Source of the DNA: Zunongwangia profunda SM-A87
GTDB taxonomy: Bacteria > Bacteroidota > Bacteroidia > Flavobacteriales > Flavobacteriaceae
Reading direction: 5' to 3'
Length of the DNA: 64,000 nt
NCBI RefSeq assembly: GCF_000023465.1
Contig: NC_014041.1
Span: 2,362,001 to 2,426,000 of the forward strand
Numbering within the stretch: position 1 is the first letter of the stretch; each line of letters begins with the position of its first letter. Below are positions 25,240 through 41,411 of this stretch, in pieces. The position numbers and the translations under genes are program-made. Under the pieces are notes generated by a model. The model was not told the DNA's origin. It ran no database searches and was given only the letters and a program-made list of their open reading frames with translations.

Positions 25240-25524
25240 ATGAAAAAGTTAAAAGTAATTTTACCGCTGTTGGCAATCATTTTTGCCATAGGGGTAGCTT
25301 TTGCTACCGTAGGTGATAATTCTAAAACTGAATTGCAAGCCAATGATTATGTACAGTTAAATGGCACGTGGCAAGCCATTCCGGAGCAAAGTTGTGAGAA
25401 CGGAGAATTTACCTGCCAGGTACAGTTGGGTCAAAACGGACCTGTGCTAGATGTCTATGACGAGCGTGGAGATAATCAGCCCAAAGCTAGTGCCAGTGAT
25501 ATGCCTACCGTAATTATCCCATAA
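25240..25524 (+). CDS. DUF6520-family small secreted protein
   Basis: 94 residues. Classic signal peptide (MKKLKVILPLLAIIFAIGVAFA) and a 70-residue mature part with two Cys nine residues apart (SCENGEFTC) and a flexible, acidic C-terminus. The N-terminal signal and length fit the Bacteroidota DUF6520 family, whose members are often next to SusC/SusD genes. Role unknown; the Cys pair may form a disulfide. The 5' leader carries a CCAGGT/ACCTGG hairpin at about 25168-25191, and a strong terminator follows, so this is a monocistronic, probably well expressed gene convergent with the peptidase-SusCD operon. Confidence 0.8.
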   Translation: MKKLKVILPLLAIIFAIGVAFATVGDNSKTELQANDYVQLNGTWQAIPEQSCENGEFTCQVQLGQNGPVLDVYDERGDNQPKASASDMPTVIIP

Positions 25525-25606: not shown

Positions 25607-28423
25607 CTAATAGTTTTCAGGGAATCCTAAAAATTGCTGATAATGAGAAATTGACATATATTTTTGTGCGGCGGCATTCAACTCCTCTAAAGTGATAAAA
25701 TATTCGAGAAGCGTTCCATATTCCAGTGCTTCCTGAGCCATATTTTCCTGATGAATTACTTTACGCTCTAAATAGGTGGTCCAGAAATTGAAATAACCAA
25801 AATGAGTAAACCCACTTTCATAAGAGGTTAATTGATGCTTTATAGCCGTGTCTAGCCATTCCTGTGTTACTCCATTCTTTTTAAGATCTTGAAATTCTTC
25901 AAGGGCTAATTGTACCAAATGTTCTTGATTCCCGAGAGCACTATCAAATTCAATTTCAAAAGCATAAATATTGTTTTTAAAATCCATCCATTTTCCACGA
26001 GCAGCAGGAGCATAACAGCCTTCCCTTAGCCGTTTAAATATACGTTCATTAAGTGCCAATGCCAGTAATTCTAGTTGTATATGTGTTTTGAGGTCTTTTT
26101 CGGCCTTTACCGGAAAAAAGAGTCGGCCATAAACCTGATTTATATTTTTATAGGTAAGATGGCTATTGATCTTTTTAATCGGAAAGTTAAATTCATTGTT
26201 AGGGATGGTTTCATTACTCGTAGGAAAAACGGTAAGTTTCCTGCTTAATGAACAGGCTATTGCAGCGGTATCAAAATCTCCGGTGAGGATAAAGGTGAAT
26301 CCATCGATGGTAGAAAAGCTTTTTTCCAGTCCTAGAAACAGCTGTTCCATCGTTAGACGAGCAAGATCTTCTCGTTGAATCACCGGTAATTGAGGATACC
26401 AAATAGCTTCAACTTTTTTCATTACAAAAGCGGATGATCCTCTTATGCCTTTACCATCCATTTTATCTATCAGTGTATTTTTCCAGGCAGCAAAAGCCGC
26501 TTTATCTTTCCGAGGATTGTTCAAATAAAGGTATAGCAGGTCTATAAGCTTCGTGAAATCATTCTTATTGGATTGTCCAGTTATTTTCTGAAACTTTTCA
26601 TCTGAAGTTAAATTAAGCTGTAAATGATGTTCCTGTTTAAATAGATCAAGAACAAACTTATTGTAAGATCCCGCTCCTAAATATTGAATCACCTCTGGGG
26701 CAAGCTGGCCAATGATATAATCCGTTTTGTTTTGTATGGGTACCGGGATGGGACGAAAAGCATTGATAGAAATCCTGTTTTTAAACTGGGCTGTTTTGGG
26801 AGCACTTGGTTTAAAAATAAGGGTAACATTATGGGGAAGTTTTACCGTGGAAATTTCAAGGTCATTCTCTTCCATTACCAACGTATCTAAAGCTTTAGTG
26901 GTTGGTATACTGATTTCCTGTTTTAAACTGGGAATGGGCGTTTGGGTTAAGGTGAAGGTTTCTGTAGGATCTATCTTTACTTCCTGAATCCATTGTTCTA
27001 AACAATCCAAATAAGGAATCCTTGCATCTTTCCCTTTGTACAAGATAAAATGGGTATTCTTTGTGAGGTTGGTATATTCCTTTATAAAATGAAAGAGATC
27101 ATTCAATTCAATTTCATTAAGGATGTTAGCCACTAACTCACCTTCGGTTTTTTGGTCTGGGGCTGCCTTGCCATTAATAAAATGATCCTGTAAACGTTGG
27201 CTGATTACCCCTGAAGTTAATGGTTGAGCTCCACTGAATGCTTCCAAAACCTGTTGTTTGGCTTTTGTCAGATCTTCTGGCTGAATACTTTGATGTAATT
27301 GTTTCCAAGCTACAATCCCTTGTTGAATACTCTTTTTTAAGGAGTTGGTATCTATTGGAATACTCATATAGGATGAGTGGATATACAGACTCATTTCACC
27401 CGATAAATAATAGTCAGGGTCAAAAGATTCGAAGGGCGGATGATAATCCCGTTTTAATAGTTGTTTTTTGAAACTCAGGATTTTTTTATAAAGCCTTTCT
27501 AAAATCTTGTTTTTATAATCGCTAGGGGAGTTCGCCCTAATTTTAAAATTTGGGCGTTTTCGAATGATTTCCAATCTTAACGTATGATCGATGCTATCCA
27601 TAACCACATCATAATAACTGCTATCGATGGTTTTTGGTTTTACAAAATCGGTTTTTTTAAAGACCGGTTTTGTGGTTGCGACCGGCTTTTTAAGTTTAGA
27701 GAATAATTGTTGTATTCGTTTTTCTAGGCTATCCAAATCAATGGCCCCCACAATGATCACCGCTTGCTGCTCCGGTTGATACCATTTTTCGTAGTAATTC
27801 ATTAATGCGTTATGGTTATAGTGCCGTAAGCTCTTCAAATGATCCTCTTCATTATAAACCCGTATACCCATAGGCTGCGCTAATTTTTTAGCTCTTATTC
27901 TTCTAAGCCAAAGCCGGTATGGATCGGTGGTACGCATTTCTCCTTGAACCGCCGCCCGTTCTACTACGATAGATTCCGGAGACCACGTATTTCCCTGCGC
28001 CCATTCAAATAGGATTTGAGTAACTTTCTCAATGTTGTTTTTAGAATTTGCGGGAACTGTAGCCTGATAAAGTGTCGCATTAGATCGCGTTTGCGCTTTA
28101 CTAAAACCTCCTATTTTTCTAAAATAGCCTTTTACATCTGGGAAATTCCGCGTTTGTTTGGCGACCAGATGTTCTAACAAATGGGCATATTCCAGTTGAT
28201 CTGTAGTTTCATTGGAAGCCCCGGCTTTGACCACCAGGTTAAAACTGATCGTATTTTCCGGGGTATGATTTTCCTTTAAATAATAGGTAAACCCATTTTT
28301 CAACTCGCCATAACGAACTGATGGATCTAAGGATAATAGTGTTGATAAACCTACGTCTTCACTTTGAGAAAAACTACTGAATCCCACTAGTAAACCTATA
28401 ATGATCAGGTTGGTTTTTAGCAT
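25607..28423 (-). CDS. M16-family zinc peptidase (pitrilysin/insulinase type)
   Basis: 938 residues from the ATG at 28421-28423, which gives a clean signal peptide (MLKTNLIIIGLLVGFSSFSQ); a start at 28450 overlaps the SusD gene. Inverted zinc motif HLLEH (His81, Glu84, His85) with the distal Glu in ERAAVQGEMRT about 75 residues on. Two full M16 halves are present in one chain, so it can form the closed chamber used to degrade peptides. Being exported, it would act in the periplasm. Last gene of the SusC-SusD operon, 13 bases after the SusD stop, suggesting imported peptides are its substrate. Confidence 0.92.
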   Translation of the reverse strand: MLKTNLIIIGLLVGFSSFSQSEDVGLSTLLSLDPSVRYGELKNGFTYYLKENHTPENTISFNLVVKAGASNETTDQLEYAHLLEHLVAKQTRNFPDVKGYFRKIGGFSKAQTRSNATLYQATVPANSKNNIEKVTQILFEWAQGNTWSPESIVVERAAVQGEMRTTDPYRLWLRRIRAKKLAQPMGIRVYNEEDHLKSLRHYNHNALMNYYEKWYQPEQQAVIIVGAIDLDSLEKRIQQLFSKLKKPVATTKPVFKKTDFVKPKTIDSSYYDVVMDSIDHTLRLEIIRKRPNFKIRANSPSDYKNKILERLYKKILSFKKQLLKRDYHPPFESFDPDYYLSGEMSLYIHSSYMSIPIDTNSLKKSIQQGIVAWKQLHQSIQPEDLTKAKQQVLEAFSGAQPLTSGVISQRLQDHFINGKAAPDQKTEGELVANILNEIELNDLFHFIKEYTNLTKNTHFILYKGKDARIPYLDCLEQWIQEVKIDPTETFTLTQTPIPSLKQEISIPTTKALDTLVMEENDLEISTVKLPHNVTLIFKPSAPKTAQFKNRISINAFRPIPVPIQNKTDYIIGQLAPEVIQYLGAGSYNKFVLDLFKQEHHLQLNLTSDEKFQKITGQSNKNDFTKLIDLLYLYLNNPRKDKAAFAAWKNTLIDKMDGKGIRGSSAFVMKKVEAIWYPQLPVIQREDLARLTMEQLFLGLEKSFSTIDGFTFILTGDFDTAAIACSLSRKLTVFPTSNETIPNNEFNFPIKKINSHLTYKNINQVYGRLFFPVKAEKDLKTHIQLELLALALNERIFKRLREGCYAPAARGKWMDFKNNIYAFEIEFDSALGNQEHLVQLALEEFQDLKKNGVTQEWLDTAIKHQLTSYESGFTHFGYFNFWTTYLERKVIHQENMAQEALEYGTLLEYFITLEELNAAAQKYMSISHYQQFLGFPENY

Positions 28424-28436
28424 TGTACCTATCAAT

Positions 28437-29837
28437 TTAATACCCTTCATTTTGACTCAAATTGGGATTTCTCATTCGTTCTTCAGAAGGGATAGGGTAC
28501 CAAATAGCAGTAGGCTTCCAAAAGGGATCCTCTGCAAATACCTCATTGGTCGTACCGGTGCGTTTTACATCTAACCATCGATGTCCCCACTCGGTAAATA
28601 GCTCGCGTTGGCGTTCTTCAGCAATAGATTGTAGTATTGCAGCTTGATCCAGATTAGGAGTGGTTTGGGAGAGTAGGGGAAGTCCCGCTCGCTCCCGAAT
28701 TTGATCTAGATCCTCGAGGGCATTCGAAAGATTGCCTAAGTGTGCTTGGGCTTCAGATCGTATTAAATACTGCTCGGCTAAGCGCATTACCATTGAATAC
28801 TCTTCAATAGGGAATTCGCTGCTACTCCTAATTTTATATTTGTAGGAATAGAAGGCTTCTAAATCAGTATTATAACCTATCCAATGTGTTTTTCGTTGAT
28901 CTTCTTCGGCGAATAAGTTGGGAAATGTTTCCTGTAATTCCAGTCCCGCTAAAAATGAAAATACAGGATCGATGATCAGTAAGTTTCCTTCATTGGTATG
29001 CGAGGTAAAACTGCCTCCTCCACTAGGGGAAATTTGCCAGATGGCTTCATTACTATTCACCAAAAATACCTGGTCAAGATCTTCCAGTAGGCTGTAAATG
29101 GGGGCTTCAATCAATTTACTGCTATAATGTGCAGCATTTTGCCAATCTTCCAAATATAAATACACCCTTGCCAATAAAGCACTGGCAACGAAACTGTTTA
29201 CCTGTGTACGTTCTCCTTCGGTGTAACCTGTTTCAAGGAATTCTTCTGCCAGGGTCAAATCTTCAATAATTTGCTCATAGATATCCGCCATTGGCGTTCT
29301 TTCAGCGACTTGGTTTTTATTATAGTCGGTGCTAAGCAGTAAAGGTACCTCTTCGTACAAGTTCACCAGATAGAAATACGTAAATGCCCGAATAAAACTA
29401 GCTTCGCCCTGAAGTCGGTGACTTAATTCCGGTGTTAGTCCATTGGAATTTTCTAAACCTTCTAAGAGCGAATTAGCCATATAGATTATATTATAGGCAC
29501 TAGACCATATATTTAAATTGCCACTGTTGTCGGGTTGGAGGTCGTGCTGTTCAAATTGCAAACGCTCGATGTTGGAGTCGTAAATATTGTGGAGGAGCCC
29601 ACCCGATAATCCTCCCAGTATGGTCACACTGTTTCGCTGACCATTGGCGAAGGCCGATAGGAATAATTGGTTATAGATTCCCGTCATAGCGCTTTGCGCT
29701 GTCTCATCCTTTTCAAAGACAACCTCGCGAACCATTTTATTATTGGGAGCATCTACTGCTACAAAATCTTCGCAGGAGTAACAGATTGCCGTGATCATTA
29801 CTAGGGATACGACGGATTTTATATGATATCTTTTCAT
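28437..29837 (-). CDS. SusD/RagB-family substrate-binding lipoprotein
   Basis: 466 residues. Lipoprotein signal (ICYSCEDF, lipid on Cys22) and the SusD plan: N-terminal SusD-like domain with TPR helices (LQGEASFIRAFTYFYLVNLY), and C-terminal RagB_SusD part ending RQRELFTEWGHRWLDVKRTG and MRNPNLSQNEGY, the standard SusD tail. Sits as a lid on the SusC channel. The partner peptidase suggests peptide rather than glycan cargo, as in RagAB. Confidence 0.95.
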   Translation of the reverse strand: MKRYHIKSVVSLVMITAICYSCEDFVAVDAPNNKMVREVVFEKDETAQSAMTGIYNQLFLSAFANGQRNSVTILGGLSGGLLHNIYDSNIERLQFEQHDLQPDNSGNLNIWSSAYNIIYMANSLLEGLENSNGLTPELSHRLQGEASFIRAFTYFYLVNLYEEVPLLLSTDYNKNQVAERTPMADIYEQIIEDLTLAEEFLETGYTEGERTQVNSFVASALLARVYLYLEDWQNAAHYSSKLIEAPIYSLLEDLDQVFLVNSNEAIWQISPSGGGSFTSHTNEGNLLIIDPVFSFLAGLELQETFPNLFAEEDQRKTHWIGYNTDLEAFYSYKYKIRSSSEFPIEEYSMVMRLAEQYLIRSEAQAHLGNLSNALEDLDQIRERAGLPLLSQTTPNLDQAAILQSIAEERQRELFTEWGHRWLDVKRTGTTNEVFAEDPFWKPTAIWYPIPSEERMRNPNLSQNEGY

Positions 29838-29848
29838 AATGCTATTTT

Positions 29849-32836
29849 TTAAAGGTTAATTTCTATTCCGCCGGTGATGGTTCTTAAATTACCAAGTCCC
29901 AAGCCCGGGCGTTCTGGGTCTAATCCATCATAATCGGTGATGGTGATGAGGTTCTGGCCGTGTAGAAAAAGTTGCATTTGTTTGAGGCCTAGTTTTGTCA
30001 CCAAGTTTTTAGGGAATTTAAAGGCAAGCGATAAGGTCTTTAAACGGAAGTACGAAGCATCCCTAATAGGAAAGCTGGTATTTAAAACGCGATTATAAGC
30101 AGTACTCGCCGCAACGGTTTGGGAGATTTGTTGATAGGGGCTATCATTACCTTCCAGACGTGATAATATCATCCGGTTAGCATTTCTAATAGCCCCTGCA
30201 CTAAAAGAAGTGATGCGTCCTTCCTGCTTTACAAATTCCCATAAAAATTGCAGGGAAAAACCTTTATATGTGAGTTGATTACTTAATCCCCCGTAAAACG
30301 ACCGGTTGTTATCTTGAATGCTATTTCGGTCTTGATAATCATAAGAACCGTCCCCATTGCTATCTTCCACGGTATAGAATCCGGTTTCCGGGTCTATACC
30401 GGTATAGTTATACAATAGGGAAATATTGAGGGGATGGCCTACCCGATATGTATTGGCGTAGGGAGATTGCTCGATGTCCGGATAGCTAAGCAGTTCATTC
30501 TTGGGAAGGCTGATATTAAATGACGTCTGCCAACGGAAATCCCTACCATTAAAATTTTGGCTGGTCCATTCTATTTCCCAACCTCGGTTTTCTACGGTAG
30601 CCGGTAAATTGGCCTGAACCGAGGTAAAACCTGTTAGATAAGGTAGAGGATAGCCCACCAACTGATTAGAAGAGCGGTTACGGTAGTAACTTATTCCTAA
30701 CCGCAGGCGGTCTTTTAAAAAACCTAGCTCCATCCCGCCTTCCAGTTTTTTGTTAATCTCCCAAGAGTAGTTAGGGTTAGCTAGTCCGGTGGGATATAAT
30801 CCACCGGCAGCAATGGTAGCTTCATAAGCATCCAGATACCCATAATCGCCAATTTGGTCATTTCCCGTTGTTCCATAACTGGCTCTTAATTTTCCGAAAC
30901 TTAGAAAAGGGAGGGCATTTTCAATTAACTTTTCATCGCTAAAAATCCAGGCGGCACCAATAGCGCCAAAATTGGTAAAGCGGTTATTTGGCCCAAAGCG
31001 TGAAGAGCCATCCCGTCTACCGGTAAAATTTAAATAATACTTGCGATCCCAATTCAAGCCTATCCTAGAAAATATAGCCGCATAACGATAGGTGGTATTT
31101 TCGCCGCTTGCATTCACGATACTTTCGGCAGCTCCTAAATTTCCGATAAGAGCTTCAGAAGCATAACCAGTTCCCTGAAAGCGTTCTAGCGAGCTGGTAT
31201 TTTCCTGAAAGGTTCCGCCAAGAATGGCGTTAACTGCTAATTTTTCAACCTTTAAGCTATAATGTAGCTGTGGTTCTATAATCCAGGAATCTCGGTAAGA
31301 ATTGATATGGGAAGAGCGATGGTTAAGGGCATCGGCTGGATTATAAGAACGTAAGGGGCGTTTAAGGATTTCCCGTGAATTAAGGTGGGTATATCCCAAA
31401 CTGGTTTTTAGTTCAAGCCCTTCAAATAACTGGTAGGATAGTCCAAGGTTAGTAATAAGGGTATTGGTATTGGTTTCACTGGTATTAAAAAAGCCCGCTA
31501 ATGGATTATCCAACCCGGCATCGCCCCAATCCTGCCAGTTCAACTGGCCATTGTCCTGAAAGATAGCGGGGGCGTTAGGCGGGAGAAATACATTGGATAA
31601 GTTGTAGGAAACCCCGCCGGTAAGCGTATTCACATCGACCCCGTAATTGGTAGATAAATTCAAATTGAACTTTTTGTTTTTAGAATGGTGATTAAGACGA
31701 AAGCTTCCTGTGATTTTGTGATAGTTATAATCCCCGGGATATACGGTACCCTGTGAAAAATAACCTCCGCTCAGCCTAAAAGACGTTTGTTCGCTGCCCC
31801 CAGAATAATCTAGTTTAGCGTTGGTGGTGCGGGAAGTGCCTCCGTAAATAAAATCCTGCCAGTCGGTATAACGTTTCTGATCCCATAATAGTAGATCGTA
31901 AGCATTACGGGCTGTCTTTTCTACACCATCATTTTCAAAAGCCCTATTTCTAACGGCCAAGTATTGCCGAGTGTTTAGAAGATCTAAACGCTCTGAAACT
32001 GTAGCTACTCCCGTATAGTAACGGGCAGTTACTCCTGAAGTAGCAGCAGTTCCCTTTTTTGTGGTGATTAAAACTACTCCGTTTGCTCCGCGTGAGCCGT
32101 AGATAGCCGTAGCATCGGCATCTTTTAAGATCTCTATACTTTTAATATTGGAAACATCAAGACTGTTTAAAGGATCGATACCGGCGGCAGCCATTAAACT
32201 ATTACTCTCGATAGGCGTGGAGTTAATCGGTACGCCATCAATAATGTATAGTGGATAATTTCCTTCTTCCCGAAGGCTATTGGTACCGCGAATCTTGATC
32301 GTGGAGGCCATCCCAGGATGGCTACCGCCAGAGGTAACTTCTACCCCCGCCATTCTACCTTGCAAGGCCTGTAGGGGGCTTACCACTGGTTGTAGTTCGA
32401 TTTCCTCGGCCGTGACTCTCGCAATATTCCCGGTGCGTTCCCGTTCGGTCGTGTTGTAATACCCGGCATTGATCACTACTTCAGATAGTGCATCAGCGTT
32501 TTGTTGTAATTGGATATCACCCTTAAAATCATTAGTGACCACCAGTATTTTGGTGGTATAACCCATAAAAGAGTAGGAGAGCGTATCGCCAATTGCGGCG
32601 GTAATACTATAGCTCCCATCCAGGTTGGTCATTGCTCCCTGGCGGCTGCTTTTAATAAGAATATTCACTCCGGGCAAGGGGAGGCCTTGTTGATCGCTTA
32701 CCGTACCACTGATAAGTTGTTGAAAGACCTTGTGATTTGTTGTTGTGGTACGGGCTTGTACCTGGAATTGTCCCAAAAAATAGAACAATAGGTATAGGGG
32801 CACTGCCCAATGGCAGCACGAATAATTATTTTTCAT
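29849..32836 (-). CDS. SusC/RagA-family TonB-dependent outer-membrane transporter
   Basis: 995 residues. Signal peptide, CarboxypepD_reg-like domain (GTVSDQQGLPLPGVNILIKS), plug with the SusC signature (IEILKDADATAIYGSRGANG) and a 22-strand barrel ending in an aromatic-free but typical GGIEINL. Active import through the outer membrane powered by TonB. First gene of the operon; 11 bases from susD. Its leader holds a strong hairpin (32883-32916). Confidence 0.95.
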   Translation of the reverse strand: MKNNYSCCHWAVPLYLLFYFLGQFQVQARTTTTNHKVFQQLISGTVSDQQGLPLPGVNILIKSSRQGAMTNLDGSYSITAAIGDTLSYSFMGYTTKILVVTNDFKGDIQLQQNADALSEVVINAGYYNTTERERTGNIARVTAEEIELQPVVSPLQALQGRMAGVEVTSGGSHPGMASTIKIRGTNSLREEGNYPLYIIDGVPINSTPIESNSLMAAAGIDPLNSLDVSNIKSIEILKDADATAIYGSRGANGVVLITTKKGTAATSGVTARYYTGVATVSERLDLLNTRQYLAVRNRAFENDGVEKTARNAYDLLLWDQKRYTDWQDFIYGGTSRTTNAKLDYSGGSEQTSFRLSGGYFSQGTVYPGDYNYHKITGSFRLNHHSKNKKFNLNLSTNYGVDVNTLTGGVSYNLSNVFLPPNAPAIFQDNGQLNWQDWGDAGLDNPLAGFFNTSETNTNTLITNLGLSYQLFEGLELKTSLGYTHLNSREILKRPLRSYNPADALNHRSSHINSYRDSWIIEPQLHYSLKVEKLAVNAILGGTFQENTSSLERFQGTGYASEALIGNLGAAESIVNASGENTTYRYAAIFSRIGLNWDRKYYLNFTGRRDGSSRFGPNNRFTNFGAIGAAWIFSDEKLIENALPFLSFGKLRASYGTTGNDQIGDYGYLDAYEATIAAGGLYPTGLANPNYSWEINKKLEGGMELGFLKDRLRLGISYYRNRSSNQLVGYPLPYLTGFTSVQANLPATVENRGWEIEWTSQNFNGRDFRWQTSFNISLPKNELLSYPDIEQSPYANTYRVGHPLNISLLYNYTGIDPETGFYTVEDSNGDGSYDYQDRNSIQDNNRSFYGGLSNQLTYKGFSLQFLWEFVKQEGRITSFSAGAIRNANRMILSRLEGNDSPYQQISQTVAASTAYNRVLNTSFPIRDASYFRLKTLSLAFKFPKNLVTKLGLKQMQLFLHGQNLITITDYDGLDPERPGLGLGNLRTITGGIEINL

Positions 32837-32882: not shown

Positions 32883-32921
32883 CCTTCCCCAACGGACTCC
32901 AATCGCGCGGGGAAGGTTTTT
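32883..32921. promoter_or_regulatory. strong hairpin in susC leader
   Basis: Stem CCTTCCCC/GGGGAAGG around an 18-base loop. On the plus strand it is followed by TTTTT, so it looks like a terminator reading away from susC; on the minus strand it sits in the susC 5' leader 47 bases before the ATG. A second small hairpin TAGCC/GGCTA lies at 32930-32942. It may insulate susC from antisense transcription or regulate it. Confidence 0.5.
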
Positions 32922-33024
32922 GACTTTTTAGCCTTAGGCTAACTCAAATGTGTGGTTTTGTTTCTTCTTATAGCTATTGGTTTTAAGGGTTATATTAATA
33001 GTTTACATTTTCTAGTTGCGTTGA

Positions 33025-33066
33025 GGTCACTGAGTGATTTCGTAGAAATCTTATCGAAGTGCCCGG
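33025..33066. repeat. dispersed repeat, copy 1
   Basis: Starts GGTCACTGAGTGATTTCG, contains the hairpin GATTTCGTAGAAATC and ends TATCGAAGTGCCCGG. Almost identical to the copy at 33217-33257 (one substitution, one extra C). Similar elements built on CACTGAG/CGAAGTG are scattered in flavobacterial intergenic regions. Confidence 0.8.
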
Positions 33067-33114: not shown

Positions 33115-33216
33115 CTCATCCAGCTTGGTGCTTTTCAGTATTCTTTTTTTAATTTACCACTATGGCTTCGATTCATTTTTCTCTTGAAAAATCACTCAGC
33201 CGCCGTTATCATTGTA

Positions 33217-33257
33217 GGTCACTGAGTGATTTCGTAGAAATCGTATCGAAGTGCCGG
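33217..33257. repeat. dispersed repeat, copy 2
   Basis: Second copy of the element at 33025-33066, same orientation, about 190 bases apart. The intervening and following sequence (32840-33580) has no gene that I can support; it also contains a near-palindrome GGAATTCCCCC/GGGGGAAATTCCC at about 33387-33420. Confidence 0.8.
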
Positions 33258-33582
33258 ATTTTTAGCCGTTAGCTTTTCTCGCTTCTAACAGCGTAGTGGT
33301 CTATCATCTATTTTCAAATTTCTAACGTTCCTTCATTGGCATTTAATTTTAAAAGTTTCTATACGGCATTTTATTACTACCCAATAGAATTCCCCCTTTT
33401 GGGGTTAGGGGGAAATTCCCACCCCTCACCACAGCAAAACGTAGGGTTGGCTGTGGTTTCCCGGACTAGCCGAATGGCATATCCTAACAATTTTTTATTA
33501 AAACTTTTCACGGTATTATAACTGTGAAAAATTGCGATTCTAGTTTTAAATAGGAAGCTTGCTAAGAATTTAAGGATAGAGT

Positions 33583-33768
33583 CTAACAAAAAAGAGACGT
33601 GAAGACTCAACTTATTGCCCTCAAGGTACTGGTATACCATACACGCAAATAAGTGAACCCACGTCTCCATAGACGTGAGCATTTGCACTTATCATCTCGC
33701 GTGTAAAAATTACCAGTTTTTGAGGACGAGATTCAAAGCGAATGCTTCTAATATTTTATATTAAGAAG
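33583..33768 (-). ncRNA. candidate rod-shaped structured RNA (6S-like?)
   Basis: On the minus strand, six stems nest in register around one apical loop (33667-33670): CCTCAA/TTGAGG (33720-33725 with 33619-33624), ACTGGTA/TACCAGT, TACACGC/GCGTGTA, ATAAGTG/CACTTAT and CACGTCT/AGACGTG, separated by short internal loops, forming a ~107-base rod. A TATATTTG box lies just upstream (33775-33782) and a six-T run (33588-33593) ends the transcript. The 3' CACGTCTC before the T run can pair with GAGACGTG used in the rod, giving an alternative terminator fold with a second internal stem (CTTATTTGC/GCAATAAG). No gene follows on this strand before susC's start region, so it is probably an independent RNA. 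A 6S-type RNA fits the shape and size; family is not proven. Confidence 0.6.
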
Positions 33769-33774
33769 TAATCG

Positions 33775-33782
33775 CAAATATA
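33775..33782 (-). promoter_or_regulatory. -7 box for the candidate ncRNA
   Basis: Minus strand TATATTTG, matching TAnnTTTG. A second TATATTTG lies 19 bases further upstream (about 33794-33801). No TTG stands at the ideal 19-base distance. Confidence 0.5.
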
Positions 33783-33866
33783 ACAATACGAACCAAATAT
33801 AATAAAATTTTATAAAGTAGTCCAAATGGCTTACTTATTTTTTGTGACCTTTTTGGAAATTGTGGT

Positions 33867-34148
33867 ATGGCAGAACTTTCACAAGAAAATATAATCCTTG
33901 CAAATAAGATAGCGACTAGAATGAAAAATCTTCGCGAGCAGAAAACTGGTCCCAAAAAAATGGATTTTGTAAGAAAATATAATGTAGAAAAACAAACAAT
34001 TAATCGGTGGGAAAGTCATATAAAGCTAAATGTAAAAACAGGAGAAAAAAAGGGTAGGGGAATAACTATTTATTCAATAGAGGATTTCTGTAAACTAGTG
34101 GGAATAACTCTTACAGAATTCTTCGATGACGACTTATTTAGAGAGTAA
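33867..34148 (+). CDS. XRE-family helix-turn-helix regulator
   Basis: 93 residues. HTH_3-type fold: ILANKIATRMKNLREQKTG, then DFVRKYNVEKQTINRWESH as the helix-turn-helix, and a C-terminal helix with SIEDFCKLVGITLTEFF. The turn is interrupted by an extra segment (LNVKTGEKKGRG). It is 195 bases upstream of the SIR2-HerA pair in the same orientation and is the likely regulator of that defence operon. Confidence 0.82.
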   Translation: MAELSQENIILANKIATRMKNLREQKTGPKKMDFVRKYNVEKQTINRWESHIKLNVKTGEKKGRGITIYSIEDFCKLVGITLTEFFDDDLFRE

Positions 34149-34343: not shown

Positions 34344-35612
34344 ATGGAAGAAGAAATATGGAAATACATTCTCTTGAATGGAAAAACAAATCAGCTTAAA
34401 GTAAAAAATCCAGTTTACGAAAAAGGAGAATTAAAATCCATTGATGACTTAAAGCCTTTCAATAAAAAAGATGATGAAGGTAATCCAGTTAAGCCAACTT
34501 TAGCAGATGCCAACAGCGAGAAAAGAAATATTTATAAAGAATTTTTCAAAAAGCCATTTAAAAATTTACTTGTTTTGTCGGGAGCTGGTTCTTCTATGGA
34601 TGTAGGCGGACTTTCAATGTGGCAACTTTGGAAAGAAACGGAAAAGAAATATAAAATCGATAAAAAGGAAAATAAACCAGAAATTGACGGTTTTAAAATT
34701 ATAAGAGAAGCTGTAAAGTTTGATTCAGAAGAAAAAAACCTAGAATCATTGCTTTCCCATATTGAAGGCTATAGTAAATTCGTTAAGGACGTAGAAATAG
34801 AAATTGGAGGTGTTAAGAAACAACTAACTGTCATTAAAGGTGAAATTTTTAAGTTAATACAAGATAAATGCACTATTCCTGCACCTTCAGATAATTTTCC
34901 CCATAAAACATTTTTAGAAAAATTATTACAGCGCAAACAAACTAATCCAAGAATTAAAATATTCACACTTAACTATGACTTATTATTCGAATATGCTGCT
35001 ACAGAAGTCAATGCTATAGTTGTTGACGGGTTCTCTTTTACATTTCCAAGAACATTTAGTGGCAGATATTTCGACTATGATATTGTTCAAAGAGAAGGAA
35101 GTAAATTAAAGGAAGAGGATAACTTTATTCAACGGGTTTTTCACCTTCATAAATTGCACGGTTCATTAAACTGGGAACGTGTTGATTCGGATCAAAAGGT
35201 TATAATAAATAATAATGCAAGCAAACCATTAATGGTTTATCCACGAGAAGCGAAATATGAGGATTCTTATGGTCAGCCATTTTTTGAAATGATGGCTAGA
35301 TTCCAAAAAAATTTAAGAAAGAATAATGACACTTTATTAATATGCATAGGTTATAGTTTTAATGATAAACATATCAATGCAGCTATTGAAGAAGCGTTAA
35401 ATCAAAACCCAGGATTTAGACTTGCTTCAATTGACCCAGGTTTTGAATCTGATAATATTTCTCCATCATTGAATGAGATTAAAAAAGTAGCTAAAGAATC
35501 TGAAAGGATTCTATTAACCTCGGAATCTTTTACTGAATTTGCTAAACACTATCCAGAAATAAAAACCTATGAGAATTTTAATCAACAAGCGATAAATTTA
35601 AATAATGGATAG
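34344..35612 (+). CDS. SIR2-domain defence effector (NADase-type)
   Basis: 422 residues. Rossmann-type NAD-binding start LLVLSGAGSSMDVGG (GAGSS at 80-84), the Asn-x-Asp motif in FTLNYDLLFEYA (Asn210, Asp212) and the catalytic His in HKLHGSLNWE (His272). A further conserved strand CIGYSFNDKHI is near residue 335. Such SIR2 proteins in defence systems cleave NAD+ upon phage infection. The 3' end overlaps the HerA gene by 8 bases, so the two are translated together. Together they match the known SIR2-HerA (Nezha) anti-phage system. Confidence 0.93.
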   Translation: MEEEIWKYILLNGKTNQLKVKNPVYEKGELKSIDDLKPFNKKDDEGNPVKPTLADANSEKRNIYKEFFKKPFKNLLVLSGAGSSMDVGGLSMWQLWKETEKKYKIDKKENKPEIDGFKIIREAVKFDSEEKNLESLLSHIEGYSKFVKDVEIEIGGVKKQLTVIKGEIFKLIQDKCTIPAPSDNFPHKTFLEKLLQRKQTNPRIKIFTLNYDLLFEYAATEVNAIVVDGFSFTFPRTFSGRYFDYDIVQREGSKLKEEDNFIQRVFHLHKLHGSLNWERVDSDQKVIINNNASKPLMVYPREAKYEDSYGQPFFEMMARFQKNLRKNNDTLLICIGYSFNDKHINAAIEEALNQNPGFRLASIDPGFESDNISPSLNEIKKVAKESERILLTSESFTEFAKHYPEIKTYENFNQQAINLNNG

Positions 35613-37320
35613 TAAAAAAATTAATCCATTTAGACACGAGTACTTTCTTGGTTACGTAAATCAAGTTCTTCCTCAATATGTAAAAGTTCATTTTCCTTCA
35701 TCTGTTTTATTAAATGGGTTTACTCATTATGGAAAAGAATTTAATGGTGGTTTAGTTGGTAGTTTTGTTGTAATAGAAGGAAGTAAATATGGATTTTTAG
35801 GAAGAATAACTGAATTATTACTTCCGGAATCAGAAAGACTTTCATTAAGTGAAAAAGCATTTCAAACTAGTGATTTTCACCCTTCAGGTAAAATAGAAAT
35901 ACTTTTATCCTTTGATTTATACGAACCATTAACAGTAAAAAAGGGATTAACAACTTATCCAAATATTGGAGCTAAAGTTTTTGTGAGTTCGGGGGATTTA
36001 GTTCAAGAATATATGTCGAGATTTGGTCTTAAAAATGGAGAGAAGAATACTCAAACAATCAATTTGGGTCATTTAGTTTCAAGTCCAAGTATTGATGTAA
36101 AAGTTAATTTGCAATCAATTTTTGGTAGACATTGCGCTGTTGTAGGAACAACAGGAGGAGGAAAAAGTTTTACTGTAAGTAAACTTATTGAGGCTTTAAT
36201 TGAAACTGATAATAAAGCAATTTTAATAGATGCAACAGGAGAATATAATGGAAAATATTGTAGTATTAAGAATGTAAATATTGGAGAGGGAGAAAGTGTT
36301 TTTCATTATTCTCAGCTAACAATCGACGATTTATTCTTTATGCTAAAACCTTCACCTAGAACTCAGACACCTAAGCTAATGGAGGCAATTAGGTCATTGA
36401 AAATCTCAGCATTAAATAAAGGAAAAAAACTAAAGCATTATAATGATGAGATCGTGATCGATGAAGGCATTATAAAAAAAGTTAATTCTCCTAAAAAGCC
36501 TTATGAAGTTTTTTACTATCGTAATATTTCTGAAATAGAAAATGGCCTTGCAGATTTTGATTTCACAAAGCTTGCTAAACAAATAACAGAAGAATGCGTT
36601 TTTGACAATGGAAATGTTTGGGGGCCAGTTTCAACGAACGATGTTTCATATTGTGTAAGCTTAATTTCAAGAGTTACAAACTTAGGTAATACACCAGAAC
36701 TTAATCAAGTGTTTGGATTTCAAGAGGATAAAAAGGATAATGATATAACTGATTTAATTGATGAATTTATATCTGATGGTAATAAAGATTGTAAACTTTT
36801 AAGATTAAACTTAAAAGACGTTAAGTATGATTTTCAGGTAAGAGAAACATTAGTTAATGCCGTTGGAAAATATTTATTAAATAAAGCAAGAAATAGAGAA
36901 TTTGAAAATTCACCAGTTGTTGTTTTAATAGACGAAGCACATCAATTTTTGAATAAATCTATCAAAGATGAATACTTTGAATCCAAACCATTAGATGCAT
37001 TTGATTCTATAGCGAAAGAATGTAGAAAATATGGCTTGTTTTTATGCATTGCCACTCAAATGCCAAGAGATATTCCTAAGGGTACTTTAAGTCAAATGGG
37101 AACTTTTATAGTCCATAGATTAATAAATTTTAATGATAAAGAAGCTATTAGTAATGCTTGTAGTACTGCTAATAAGAATACATTGGATTTCTTGCCAATT
37201 CTCGGAGAAGGAGAAGCAGTTGTAACTGGTGTAGATTTTCCAATGCCTATCATTATGAAATTTGAAAAACCAATAGAAGAACCAAATTCAGAAACACCAA
37301 AATTGAAATTAAATGGATAG
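35605..37320 (+). CDS. herA: HerA-like hexameric ATPase of SIR2-HerA system
   Basis: 571 residues. N-terminal beta-rich HAS-barrel region (about 10-130), Walker A VVGTTGGGKSFTVSKL (Thr/Gly-rich loop 181-189), Walker B VVVLIDEAHQFL (Asp443, Glu444) and ATQMPRDIPKGTLSQMG (sensor region), then the C-terminal HerA end. In published SIR2-HerA complexes the HerA hexamer assembles with SIR2 and controls its NADase activity. No nuclease NurA is adjacent, which supports the defence assignment over DNA repair. Confidence 0.93.
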   Translation: MDSKKINPFRHEYFLGYVNQVLPQYVKVHFPSSVLLNGFTHYGKEFNGGLVGSFVVIEGSKYGFLGRITELLLPESERLSLSEKAFQTSDFHPSGKIEILLSFDLYEPLTVKKGLTTYPNIGAKVFVSSGDLVQEYMSRFGLKNGEKNTQTINLGHLVSSPSIDVKVNLQSIFGRHCAVVGTTGGGKSFTVSKLIEALIETDNKAILIDATGEYNGKYCSIKNVNIGEGESVFHYSQLTIDDLFFMLKPSPRTQTPKLMEAIRSLKISALNKGKKLKHYNDEIVIDEGIIKKVNSPKKPYEVFYYRNISEIENGLADFDFTKLAKQITEECVFDNGNVWGPVSTNDVSYCVSLISRVTNLGNTPELNQVFGFQEDKKDNDITDLIDEFISDGNKDCKLLRLNLKDVKYDFQVRETLVNAVGKYLLNKARNREFENSPVVVLIDEAHQFLNKSIKDEYFESKPLDAFDSIAKECRKYGLFLCIATQMPRDIPKGTLSQMGTFIVHRLINFNDKEAISNACSTANKNTLDFLPILGEGEAVVTGVDFPMPIIMKFEKPIEEPNSETPKLKLNG

Positions 37321-38454: not shown

Positions 38455-39498
38455 ATGAGGAAAATTTATGCTCCCCTATTGACATTAGCTGTTCTAATTA
38501 CTTCTTGTACATCAGTACTTGACAACAAAATTGAATCATCAACAATTGAGTCTAATGTCCAACAGATAAAGGAAAAAAATCCAGAATTGGATACACTAAA
38601 ATTAGAGATTTTGGAAAGTTTAGTAACTTTCAACCAAGGAAGAGAGGCTTACATCGCTGAACTTGAAGAAAAAATGGACGACTCAGATTATTCTTTGGAA
38701 AAAATGATTGTTTCCGAAGAAACATTTAACGAACAAATAGATAACCTATTTAATTATTTAAAGGCTCAAGAAATATCATTTAATAAACTGTTTTCTGAAA
38801 TTGACACAGTAAATGCAATAAATAATAGATTTGATATTGAAGCTCAAGATATTCATAAGGAAATTGATGATTTCTGTAATGAAAAACAAAAAGAAATTGA
38901 TGGAAGAGAGGAAAAAGCCAAAGAAATAAAGGCTGAACTTAACTCAATGGTGGATTTGAAAATCATTAGTATCAGGGAAACGGAACGCGATTATCGAGAT
39001 ATTGTGGAAGTTAAAATAAAGATGACAAACAAAATATCTGAACCTATAGAAGCTATAAGTTTTAATATTGAAATTACAGATAAGCTTGGGAATAAATTGG
39101 CAACTTTACGTTGTCGCTCAAATGACAGATTCGTCAAATCTGATATTGGATATTGGACTTATGGAAGATGGGACCAGTCAGACACTTATAAAGCTTTAAA
39201 AAACACAAAGCTTTCTCACATCTCAACTAAACAAGAAATAACAAAAATTAACCATGGTGGCAAATTGATTTCTGCATATGATAATATGGACGATTTATTG
39301 GTGATAAATTATGAATACAACTCTCCTGAAAAATTATATGGTTATTGTCCTTATTTGGAAGATACAGATGATTTGAAAATTGAACTTGAAAAACTAAAAA
39401 AGAAAAAAGAAAAAGAAATTGAGAGATCCACTCCAATAATCAATAAATACCAAACGATTACATCTAAGTTAATTGACTTTTCAAAGATGTTTAATTAA
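38455..39498 (+). CDS. coiled-coil lipoprotein of unknown function
   Basis: 347 residues. Lipobox ITSC (Cys18). Long helical, Glu/Lys-rich first half with coiled-coil character (about 40-165), a beta-rich middle resembling an Ig-like domain (DIVEVKIKMTNKISEPIEAI, SFNIEITDKLGNKLATL) and a second coiled segment. No known family. It stands alone in a cassette flanked by the 168-bp repeats. Confidence 0.65.
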   Translation: MRKIYAPLLTLAVLITSCTSVLDNKIESSTIESNVQQIKEKNPELDTLKLEILESLVTFNQGREAYIAELEEKMDDSDYSLEKMIVSEETFNEQIDNLFNYLKAQEISFNKLFSEIDTVNAINNRFDIEAQDIHKEIDDFCNEKQKEIDGREEKAKEIKAELNSMVDLKIISIRETERDYRDIVEVKIKMTNKISEPIEAISFNIEITDKLGNKLATLRCRSNDRFVKSDIGYWTYGRWDQSDTYKALKNTKLSHISTKQEITKINHGGKLISAYDNMDDLLVINYEYNSPEKLYGYCPYLEDTDDLKIELEKLKKKKEKEIERSTPIINKYQTITSKLIDFSKMFN

Positions 39499-40175: not shown

Positions 40176-41030
40176 CTACGCTGCTAGTTTAAGGTTATAC
40201 ATGTCTAATTCAAATTCTCTTATAGTTCTATTTCCTAAAAAGGAATGTCTTCTTCTATTATTATACCAAGTTTCTATCCATCCAAAGATGGATAACTCCG
40301 CTTCAGATCTCAACTTATAATTGTGCCTATAAACCCATTCTACCTTTAATGATTTAAAGAACGATTCAGCAATGGCATTATCCCAGCAATTACCTTTTCT
40401 GCTCATAGATTGGTTTACTAAGCCATTGTAACTTTTAATTAATGAGGTAAACTTATGGCTGGCATATTGTATACCTCGGTCGGAATGAAAAATTAAAGAC
40501 TGGGTTAAAGTAGTTTTCTTTATAGCCATATGCCAAGCCTTAATAATAGTGTCTTCTGTACTTAGATTATCGCTTAGAGCCCATCCAACAACTTTGCGGT
40601 TAAACAAATCAATAATGACAGTAAGGTATAACCAGCCCTGTTTGGTTTTGATATAGGTTATATCGCTTACCCAAACTTGATCCTGTCGGCTTACTTCAAA
40701 GTTTTGGTTTAATAAATTAGGAGCTATGGGGTAATTATGTTGACTATATGTGGTTGCTTTAAACTTACGTTTTCGTTTTGCAAACAAATAATTAGCACTC
40801 ATAATACGTGCAACTCTAGGCTTTGATATTTTATAGCCTAATGTCTCTAGTTCTGTTTTTATTCTAGGTGAACCATAGCTTTGAAAGCTATCTTTAAATA
40901 TAGATTTAATAAGCCCAGTTACCTTTTGATTTTCTAACCATAATTTACTTGGTCCCGATTGTAACCAATGGTAATAGCCACTTTTGCTTACTTTCAATAT
41001 TTTACACATCGTCTCGACAGGAAATCTCAT
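40176..41030 (-). CDS. IS3-family transposase OrfB (catalytic part)
   Basis: 284 residues. HTH_21 and rve integrase-core domains with the DDE triad visible: Asp in WVSDITYI (about 124), Asp in FHSDRGIQY (about 184) and Glu in NAIAESFFKSLK (about 220). In-frame codons upstream of the ATG (RERQEKYRFIKQHL) show it is normally made by frameshifting from orfA. Appears intact. Confidence 0.95.
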   Translation of the reverse strand: MRFPVETMCKILKVSKSGYYHWLQSGPSKLWLENQKVTGLIKSIFKDSFQSYGSPRIKTELETLGYKISKPRVARIMSANYLFAKRKRKFKATTYSQHNYPIAPNLLNQNFEVSRQDQVWVSDITYIKTKQGWLYLTVIIDLFNRKVVGWALSDNLSTEDTIIKAWHMAIKKTTLTQSLIFHSDRGIQYASHKFTSLIKSYNGLVNQSMSRKGNCWDNAIAESFFKSLKVEWVYRHNYKLRSEAELSIFGWIETWYNNRRRHSFLGNRTIREFELDMYNLKLAA

Positions 41031-41041
41031 AAGGTGTTGTT

Positions 41042-41356
41042 TTATAAACCTGTATTTTTCTTGTCGCTCGCGGAGAAGATGCTGATGGCCTTTTTTAAGA
41101 TGTCTCGTTCTAACTCGGCTTCTTTTAATGCCTTTTTTAATCGGGCTATCTCTTTTTCTTCATCGGTCATTTTAGGATTACCACGGCCAGGGAAACTGTT
41201 GTTACCGTAATCTTTTAACTCTCTACGCCAACGGTAAAGTACAGATGGAAATATATCCAAGTCTTCACATACTTGTTTTACATTGCCTTTAGCATAACTT
41301 AACTCGACTGCTTTTTGTTTAAATTCTAAGGTGTAATGTTTAGATTTTCTTCTCAT
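41042..41356 (-). CDS. IS3-family transposase OrfA (HTH_Tnp_1)
   Basis: 104 residues from the ATG at 41354-41356. HTH fold KHYTLEFKQKAVELSYAKGN and KQVCEDLDIFPSVLYRWRRE followed by a leucine zipper (EKEIARLKKALKEAELERD). Near the 3' end the slippery A6G sequence (minus strand, 41090-41096) allows -1 frameshifting into orfB; reading -1 from there joins exactly to the OrfB extension. Confidence 0.93.
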   Translation of the reverse strand: MRRKSKHYTLEFKQKAVELSYAKGNVKQVCEDLDIFPSVLYRWRRELKDYGNNSFPGRGNPKMTDEEKEIARLKKALKEAELERDILKKAISIFSASDKKNTGL

Positions 41357-41411
41357 AATTGCTAAGGTAATAACTAGCAAAAATATTCTCTCAACTTAGT
41401 GTCCGGTCTAA

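Follow-up and report, generated by a model that had tools for sequence, protein, structure and literature searches.

A conserved rod-shaped RNA element lies on the minus strand, at 33583-33801 of the window, the 64,000-nucleotide stretch of Zunongwangia profunda SM-A87 DNA analysed here. It is best read, with a probability of about one half, as a leader RNA that acts in cis and has two folds, with a divergent regulator and its defence cassette on one side and a SusC/SusD/M16 operon on the other. Genome comparison indicates that the rod is one copy of a multi-copy RNA family. Covariation among the copies indicates two mutually exclusive folds, namely the rod, and an early hairpin with a long terminator-like hairpin, whose loops are complementary. 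The support for this reading is drawn from sequence, and comprises the family, the multi-copy genomic frame, the two folds, the co-oriented downstream gene, and guide matches in other genomes. From these we infer the switching between the folds and the bypass of the terminator by guided transcription.

The element in the window

The rod and its neighbouring signals have the following features, numbered from the first letter of the window.

33794 to 33801, minus strand: preferred promoter box of the rod, TATATTTG (read in the sequence; conserved in the alignment of relatives)
33775 to 33782, minus strand: second TATATTTG, the box of the original prediction, immediately 5' of hairpin P1 (read in the sequence; conserved as TATATTTGCG in the alignment)
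33738 to 33775, minus strand: 5' hairpin P1, GCGATTACTTC ... GAAGCATTCGC (computed fold; aligned in relatives)
33617 to 33727, minus strand: rod, with stem A (33727-33720 with 33624-33617), stems B, C, and D, and apical stem E (folds, pair counts, own-versus-swapped test)
33727 to 33731, minus strand: 5' strand of F, TCTCG, with its partner CGAGA at 33699-33695 in the alternative fold (covariation, including distant relatives)
33695 to 33699, minus strand: 3' strand of F, CGAGA (covariation, including distant relatives)
33711 to 33717, minus strand: 5' strand of B, ACTGGTA, in the loop of hairpin F or the centre of the rod, depending on the fold (covariation, distant relatives)
33628 to 33634, minus strand: 3' strand of B, TACCAGT, in the loop of hairpin P5 or the centre of the rod, depending on the fold (covariation, distant relatives)
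33625 to 33638, minus strand: hairpin P5, GGTATACCAGTACC (pair counts, distant relatives)
33594 to 33667, minus strand: terminator-like hairpin G/D' of the alternative fold, GAGACGTG (33667-33660) with CACGTCTC (33601-33594) (covariation, folds)
33588 to 33593, minus strand: T6 run following the G hairpin (read in the sequence)

The promoter box that the original prediction gave at 33775-33782 is present there on the minus strand. Both boxes are kept in the aligned relatives, and their sequence is what we take to be the Bacteroidota -7 promoter consensus. As a promoter, the predicted box is less plausible than the one at 33801-33794, because hairpin P1 starts at 33775 and a transcript starting right after the 33782-33775 box would cut it. 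Likewise, the stems described at 33619-33725 form a real rod, but the conserved element is longer and begins at P1 (33775). The T6 run is found as described, at about 33593-33588, and conserved letters run on beyond it in many relatives. The 103-codon open reading frame that was thought to be antisense to the RNA (33377-33688) in fact shares the minus strand with the RNA. A leader peptide was rejected, since an ATG within the window rod lacks conservation and its base is T, G, C, or A in the alignment.

The long rod-like fold is confirmed by a minimum free energy of -66.9 kcal/mol, far below the shuffle mean of -39.08 (sd 3.7; z -7.52), and none of 200 shuffles is as low. The plus strand of the region folds nearly equally well, at z -7.34. 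The strand assignment therefore rests on the promoter box, the T run, the G-U pairs, and the co-oriented downstream genes, and not on folding energy. G-U pairs are common or dominant at several positions, such as the U-G found in 34 of 48 copies at columns 68/88. Good folding of both strands could also arise by chance, or in a DNA element (an attachment site, for example), without any RNA role; exchangeable cassettes lie next to the site, and mobile-element genes next to some distant copies. Such an explanation is very improbable. Chance is rejected on the fold z of -7.52 together with the own-versus-swapped test described below. A DNA element is opposed by the frequent or dominant G-U pairs, by a promoter box and a T run in the right order, and by the co-oriented downstream genes.

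Copies and distribution of the family

The window genome has four rod matches, which are the window element, two close copies, and a fourth weak one. With the window genome counted in each case, DNA similarity finds matches in 28 of 198 relatives, and a covariance model of 48 copies finds rods in 76 of 397 family genomes, with a maximum of seven copies per genome, and in 54 of 395 genomes drawn from the phylum. The exact pattern of two rod motifs occurs in at least 118 stretches in named genomes, mostly Bacteroidota. The genera among the matches listed include Flavobacterium, Chryseobacterium, Maribacter, and Mucilaginibacter, and the matches listed also include a few Ignavibacteria and Verrucomicrobia records, which are draft or metagenome records and possibly misassigned. 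Two viral contigs (L276 and L277) contain the exact motif pair. In locus L059, about 8.4 kb separates two rods, and each rod has a divergent small gene of its own.

No Rfam 15 family matches the window region at its gathering score. At E<=10, two human antisense-RNA models alone appear, and these are chance matches far under their cut-offs. An Rfam scan of seven relatives (135006 bases) found tRNA and tmRNA alone, and no rod family. The element is undescribed in Rfam 15 and in the literature searched, which is weak evidence of absence as it excludes preprints and most subscription papers.

Shape and length had suggested 6S RNA, and a covariance search with the Rfam 6S and 6S-Flavo models had been proposed. 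This search was run, and the region reaches no Rfam cut-off; no 6S model matches either at gathering score or at E<=10. The rod resembles 6S RNA and 6S-Flavo (RF01685) in having a rod-like fold of about 150-190 nt and its own promoter box. In contrast, it has no useful model score, occurs in several copies, and precedes co-oriented genes. The 6S-Flavo gene of the window genome is elsewhere (G000:C1:2005153-2005270, 95.8 bits). On the absent model match and this separate gene, 6S RNA was rejected as the identity of the rod.

Two exclusive folds

The terminator was predicted to compete with the apical stem, so that only one of two folds could form at a time. This competition stands: GAGACGTG (about 33667-33660) and CACGTCTC (about 33601-33594) are complementary, the full rod excludes F and G/D', and relatives support the competition by compensatory changes. 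The regulated transcript with exclusive folds that was suggested is also supported by the promoter box, the adjoining inverted repeat, the covariation in both folds, and the terminator-like 3' end.

Compensatory changes, proposed as a check, are found in relatives as double changes above shuffles in both folds. In the 48 copies, the rod fold pairs in 98.1% of cells and has 110 double changes against 34.7 in shuffles, while the alternative fold (F, P5, and G/D') pairs in 95.6% and has 32 against 8.4; none of 500 shuffles reaches either count, and the slid controls flatter both structures, since both are derived from the same 48-copy alignment. The number of pair types is not above that of shuffles, being reached by 315 of 500 for the rod and by 142 of 500 for the alternative.

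The own-versus-swapped test compares the strand of a copy with a partner strand from itself or from another copy, and depends little on the alignment. In the 48 rods, it gives z values of 23.7 for A, 15.1 for C, and 6.1 for B, with weaker helices at 4.4 (F), 4.0 (D'), 3.7 (D), and 3.4 (G). In 20 distant copies outside the model, the values are 11.2 for A, 6.4 for B, 6.1 for F, and 4.5 for P5, whereas helix G is not significant at 1.8; three of these 20 rows (L087, L090, and L091) were retained although their B and P5 are wrongly anchored, which lowers the result. The distant copies keep B with quite different letters, such as ATCGCCA with TGGCGAT, ACGACCA with TGGTCGT, and TCTGAC with GTCAGA, and keep F as TTGATT with AATCAA, TAATTC with GAATTA, and CCACC with GGTGG. 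As the strands of B are the loops of F and P5 in the alternative fold, the same letters form either a loop-loop contact or the centre of the rod.

The rod is the fold of lower energy in 46 of 48 copies, with a mean gap of 8.4 kcal/mol when the loop-loop pairing is left out. One locus (L060) is left out of the fold counts, since it has the promoter and P1 and lacks the rod. The hairpin and the T run are present in the window. L050 and L052 have a poor T run, which makes termination doubtful there. In L055, L026, L030, L062, L065, and others, an additional hairpin or loop pairing is seen just 3' of the T run. This pairing (for example, GTAGAG with CTCTAC, and GTCCC with GGGAC) would place the T run in a loop, and seems by eye to covary.

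The genes on both sides of the rod

The window rod lies between two groups of genes that face away from each other.

33867 to 34148, plus strand: divergent small gene of 93 aa, Cro/CI-like by eye only
34344 to 35612, plus strand: SIR2-family gene of the defence cassette
35605 to 37320, plus strand: HerA-family ATPase gene of the defence cassette
29849 to 32836, minus strand: SusC-type TonB-dependent receptor gene, the next large co-oriented gene past the rod
28437 to 29837, minus strand: SusD-family gene
25607 to 28450, minus strand: M16 peptidase gene

The set of rods compared comprises 109 copies, of which 83 are of the window's kind and the other 26 are distant. A divergent upstream reading frame of 60-200 aa is present in 82 of the 83. 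Pfam HTH_3 matches 47 of these 82, and some others match related HTH models; the divergent gene of the window has no Pfam match, HTH_3 included. Most rods of the window's kind have an inverted repeat right at the promoter, with letters that vary by locus and a mean score of 9.62 against 6.19 in simple base shuffles. Such locus-specific repeats are as expected for exchangeable regulators with their own operators, and the repeat that relatives have beside the rod promoter box is probably the operator of the divergent gene.

Beyond the divergent reading frame is variable cargo that is rich in defence genes. The rod was said to stand beside a defence island, and this is so: the window has SIR2 and HerA, and the relatives likewise have defence-rich cargo. 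The first larger cargo gene, taken from 79 loci, matches 264 PADLOC families at 1e-8 against two for 52 far-downstream control genes, a contrast that counts where the total does not, as the families are highly redundant and one SIR2 protein matches 26. The matches include restriction methylases, Kiwa, Qat, and Cas1. Scanned one by one, 10 of 20 hand-picked, non-random cargo proteins have a PADLOC match at 1e-5. The defence system differs at nearly every locus. Further along the defence region of the window, a gene for 347 aa (38455-39498) has a weak Druantia DruC match (E 0.00044). Right past the defence cassette are IS3-type transposase genes (40176-41380), the larger with rve and HTH_21.

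On the other side, the nearest reading frame of at least 100 aa downstream is co-oriented in 81 of the 83 rods of the window's kind and in 24 of the 26 distant ones. A separate set, based on the pattern, has a co-oriented downstream gene in 101 of 120 cases, and nine of the 120 are without a gene to judge. For the 83, the downstream gene is SusC in 49 and sigma with dCas12f in 13; 8 and 7 rods precede genes of two other families, and the last 6 precede others. The genes that follow distant rods are many and unrelated, with response regulators and other signalling genes among them; some of these rods adjoin the mobile-element genes DUF5712, RadC, and RhuM. In distant copies, the downstream start codon comes either straight after the T run or no more than tens of bases later. 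In most SusC loci, SusC is 190-770 nt downstream, which is far for a simple attenuator. Between the rod and SusC, the window has two near-identical direct copies (33025-33065 and 33215-33255; ggtcactgagtgatttcgtagaaatc.tatcgaagtgcc) with the look of a dispersed repeat. Behind the M16 peptidase gene is a DUF6520 gene in the opposite orientation (25240-25524), and a small homologue of it is at the same place in about 30 related loci (cluster K3).

Rods have the features of an attenuator-type leader in that they lie 5' of a co-oriented gene and have two exclusive conserved folds, G being weak in the distant set. Like attenuators and riboswitch platforms, they precede a co-oriented gene and have two folds that exclude each other, of which one includes a terminator-like hairpin and a T run. 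They differ in that the rod antiterminator would come from zipping two hairpins with complementary loops, in their absence from Rfam 15, and in the match of their DNA to a guide. The processive antitermination RNAs put and EAR are also structured leaders before long accessory operons, like the rod, and we know of no terminator competition of the rod's kind in them.

The same observations bear on a trans-acting small RNA, for which the T run would be the true 3' end, the folds would be maturation steps, and the downstream genes would have their own promoters or guided starts. The strong fold, the promoter box, the several copies per genome, and the 6S-like rod shape are consistent with this, as is a SusC gene often hundreds of bases from the rod. 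It is nevertheless unlikely, given the 81 of 83 and 24 of 26 co-oriented downstream genes, the start codons so close to the T run in distant copies, and the letters conserved beyond it.

Another possibility is a leader of mobile or accessory genes that binds a ligand or a protein, such as a riboswitch or an antitermination element, to which sigma-dCas12f guides adapted late and in some genera only. The family is wide and precedes unrelated genes, most rod genomes are without dCas12f, and the invariant stretches exceed the needs of pairing. No ligand theme is seen among the genes, and the invariant stretches could be explained by the keeping of both folds and the loop-loop contact, so we consider this alternative doubtful. 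It is compatible with the two-fold cis-acting leader preferred here, to which it would add the name of a trigger.

Guides of sigma-dCas12f loci that match rods

Some rods lie beside the gene of a 365-aa protein that closely resembles the nuclease-deactivated Cas12f of PDB entries 9n9c, 9n9m, 9n9o, and 9n9q (598 bits), and the neighbour of this protein is close to the RpoE chain of 9n9q (309 bits). Directly 3' of dCas12f is a Cas12f-like scaffold that ends in ATACAAC, followed by the guide. The likeness to the dCas12f-sigma system of these structures consists of the close proteins in rod genomes and of guides that match the rod or the SusC leader. The rod itself differs from that system's RNA, being the matched site and not the guide RNA; the rod as dCas12f guide RNA was rejected, since the scaffold is a separate sequence 3' of dCas12f without a rod match.

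In 13 of 25 dCas12f loci, a guide agrees with a rod from the same genome at 13-16 of 16 positions. These guides match the 3' strand of the apical stem, and in every case the site is 52-60 nt past the AAAAC motif. Three loci have a perfect 16/16 match, with G099 and G403 as perfect-match genomes. Shuffled guides reach at most 12/14. The base before the match is G in 11 of the 13 matches, and C or A in L050 and L054. This 5'-G is presumably the adjacent motif for DNA binding by the dCas12f-sigma system. As a target of that system, the rod family thus presents both a same-genome guide match and the 5'-G. The guides of two further loci fit the SusC leader, at a site 240-244 nt past the rod. The remaining 10 of the 25 have neither a rod match of at least 13/16 nor a SusC-leader match of at least 14/16 among the collected loci, which are the scope of the comparison; L145 is outside the 25, as the pattern finds no guide there. 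A switch-RNA gene as a natural dCas12f site was not found in the literature searched, which excludes preprints and most subscription papers.

Two loci have guides placed in other ways. L060, where the promoter, P1, and sigma-dCas12f are kept and the rod is missing, has a guide that fits the rod of L069 in the same genome at 15/16. At L111, one of four guides matches (14/16) the operator and promoter region beside the rod, on the minus strand at about 8268 of the reversed locus.

Since the guide is identical to the first arm of the terminator in loci that target rods, it could act as an RNA, whose strand would pair with the second arm in trans and block termination. This is highly unlikely: the guides of two loci fit the SusC leader, which is outside the rod, and 11 of 13 rod matches follow the 5'-G, the adjacent motif for DNA binding by this system.

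Rods are found in 18 of 19 dCas12f genomes against 58 of 378 others (Fisher 3.2e-13). Of the 76 rod genomes, 58 have no dCas12f match. Among the 397 genomes, 16 have the exact scaffold pattern; each of these also has a dCas12f match, and the pattern is absent from the other 58 rod genomes. As both dCas12f and scaffold are missing there, guided transcription cannot be the general role of the rod family. Guided control would be a later addition to the RNA switch in some members of the family, and not the origin of the switch. TldR proteins are nuclease-dead TnpB repressors that give RNA-guided transcription control (PMC13418256). The two systems share RNA-guided control of transcription by a nuclease-dead TnpB/Cas12-like protein, but TldR represses, whereas the rod-linked system has a sigma factor and should activate.

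The guides of the window genome

Three sites in the window bear on guided control.

33649 to 33665, minus strand: counterpart in the window rod of the sequence matched by dCas12f guides, GACGTGGGTTCACTTAT (placed from matched rods elsewhere)
32910 to 32921, minus strand: exact 12-nt match in the SusC leader to the start of the L072 guide, AAAAACCTTCCC, preceded by C and not G
32929 to 32944, minus strand: 13/16 match in the SusC leader to the L073 guide, preceded by G (assessed by shuffles)

The window genome has two sigma-dCas12f pairs (L072 and L073) with no rods beside them, rod matches there being no better than short chance ones. Its three guides have no match in its rods, the window rod included. 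In the SusC leader of the window, no shuffle of 1000 gives a match as long as the 12-nt prefix of the L072 guide. The 13/16 match of the L073 guide has a P of 0.003 by shuffles, uncorrected for nine guide-locus pairs. The other two SusC leaders of the genome (L023 and L024) have no guide match. Taken together, dCas12f-guided control of the window SusC operon is plausible.

Proposed mechanism and significance

Transcription of the rod RNA would begin at the TATATTTG box (33801-33794). The RNA would contain two hairpins with complementary loops, the early F and the long G/D'-P5. With the loops of F and P5 apart, the G hairpin and the T run would terminate transcription; with F and P5 zipped together, the rod would form and transcription would read through. 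In sigma-dCas12f systems, the start site is set by the distance from the bound site. In genomes with such a system, the guided complex would bind where the rod DNA encodes the terminator's first arm, with the RNA starting downstream of that arm. An RNA of this kind would lack the first arm, form no terminator, and read into SusC/SusD or into sigma-dCas12f itself. The guides of the window genome seem to be aimed at the SusC leader about 640-670 bases past the rod, and the outcome for SusC would be the same.

A broader reading is offered tentatively. In it, the site is a two-input control point, where a locus-specific regulator, exchanged with its cassette, controls transcription from the promoter and a zip-fold attenuator then gates it, and the RNA-guided sigma factor enters inside and escapes the attenuator, as its RNA lacks the first arm of the terminator. 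If this is true, one guide would command a regulon of surface-receptor operons as well as its own operon, and each copy would be tied to a different defence system. If the bypass is true, a guided start site would serve to avoid a terminator, and we know of no other case of this.

The rods form a wide, uncatalogued family of structured RNAs, with an unusual switch in which two hairpins with complementary loops would zip into one rod. For RNA-guided transcription, they supply a concrete set of candidate natural sites in genomes already sequenced, and several of these match at all 16 nt. They also offer a testable link between defence cassettes and surface receptors, which stand on opposite sides of one regulatory element.
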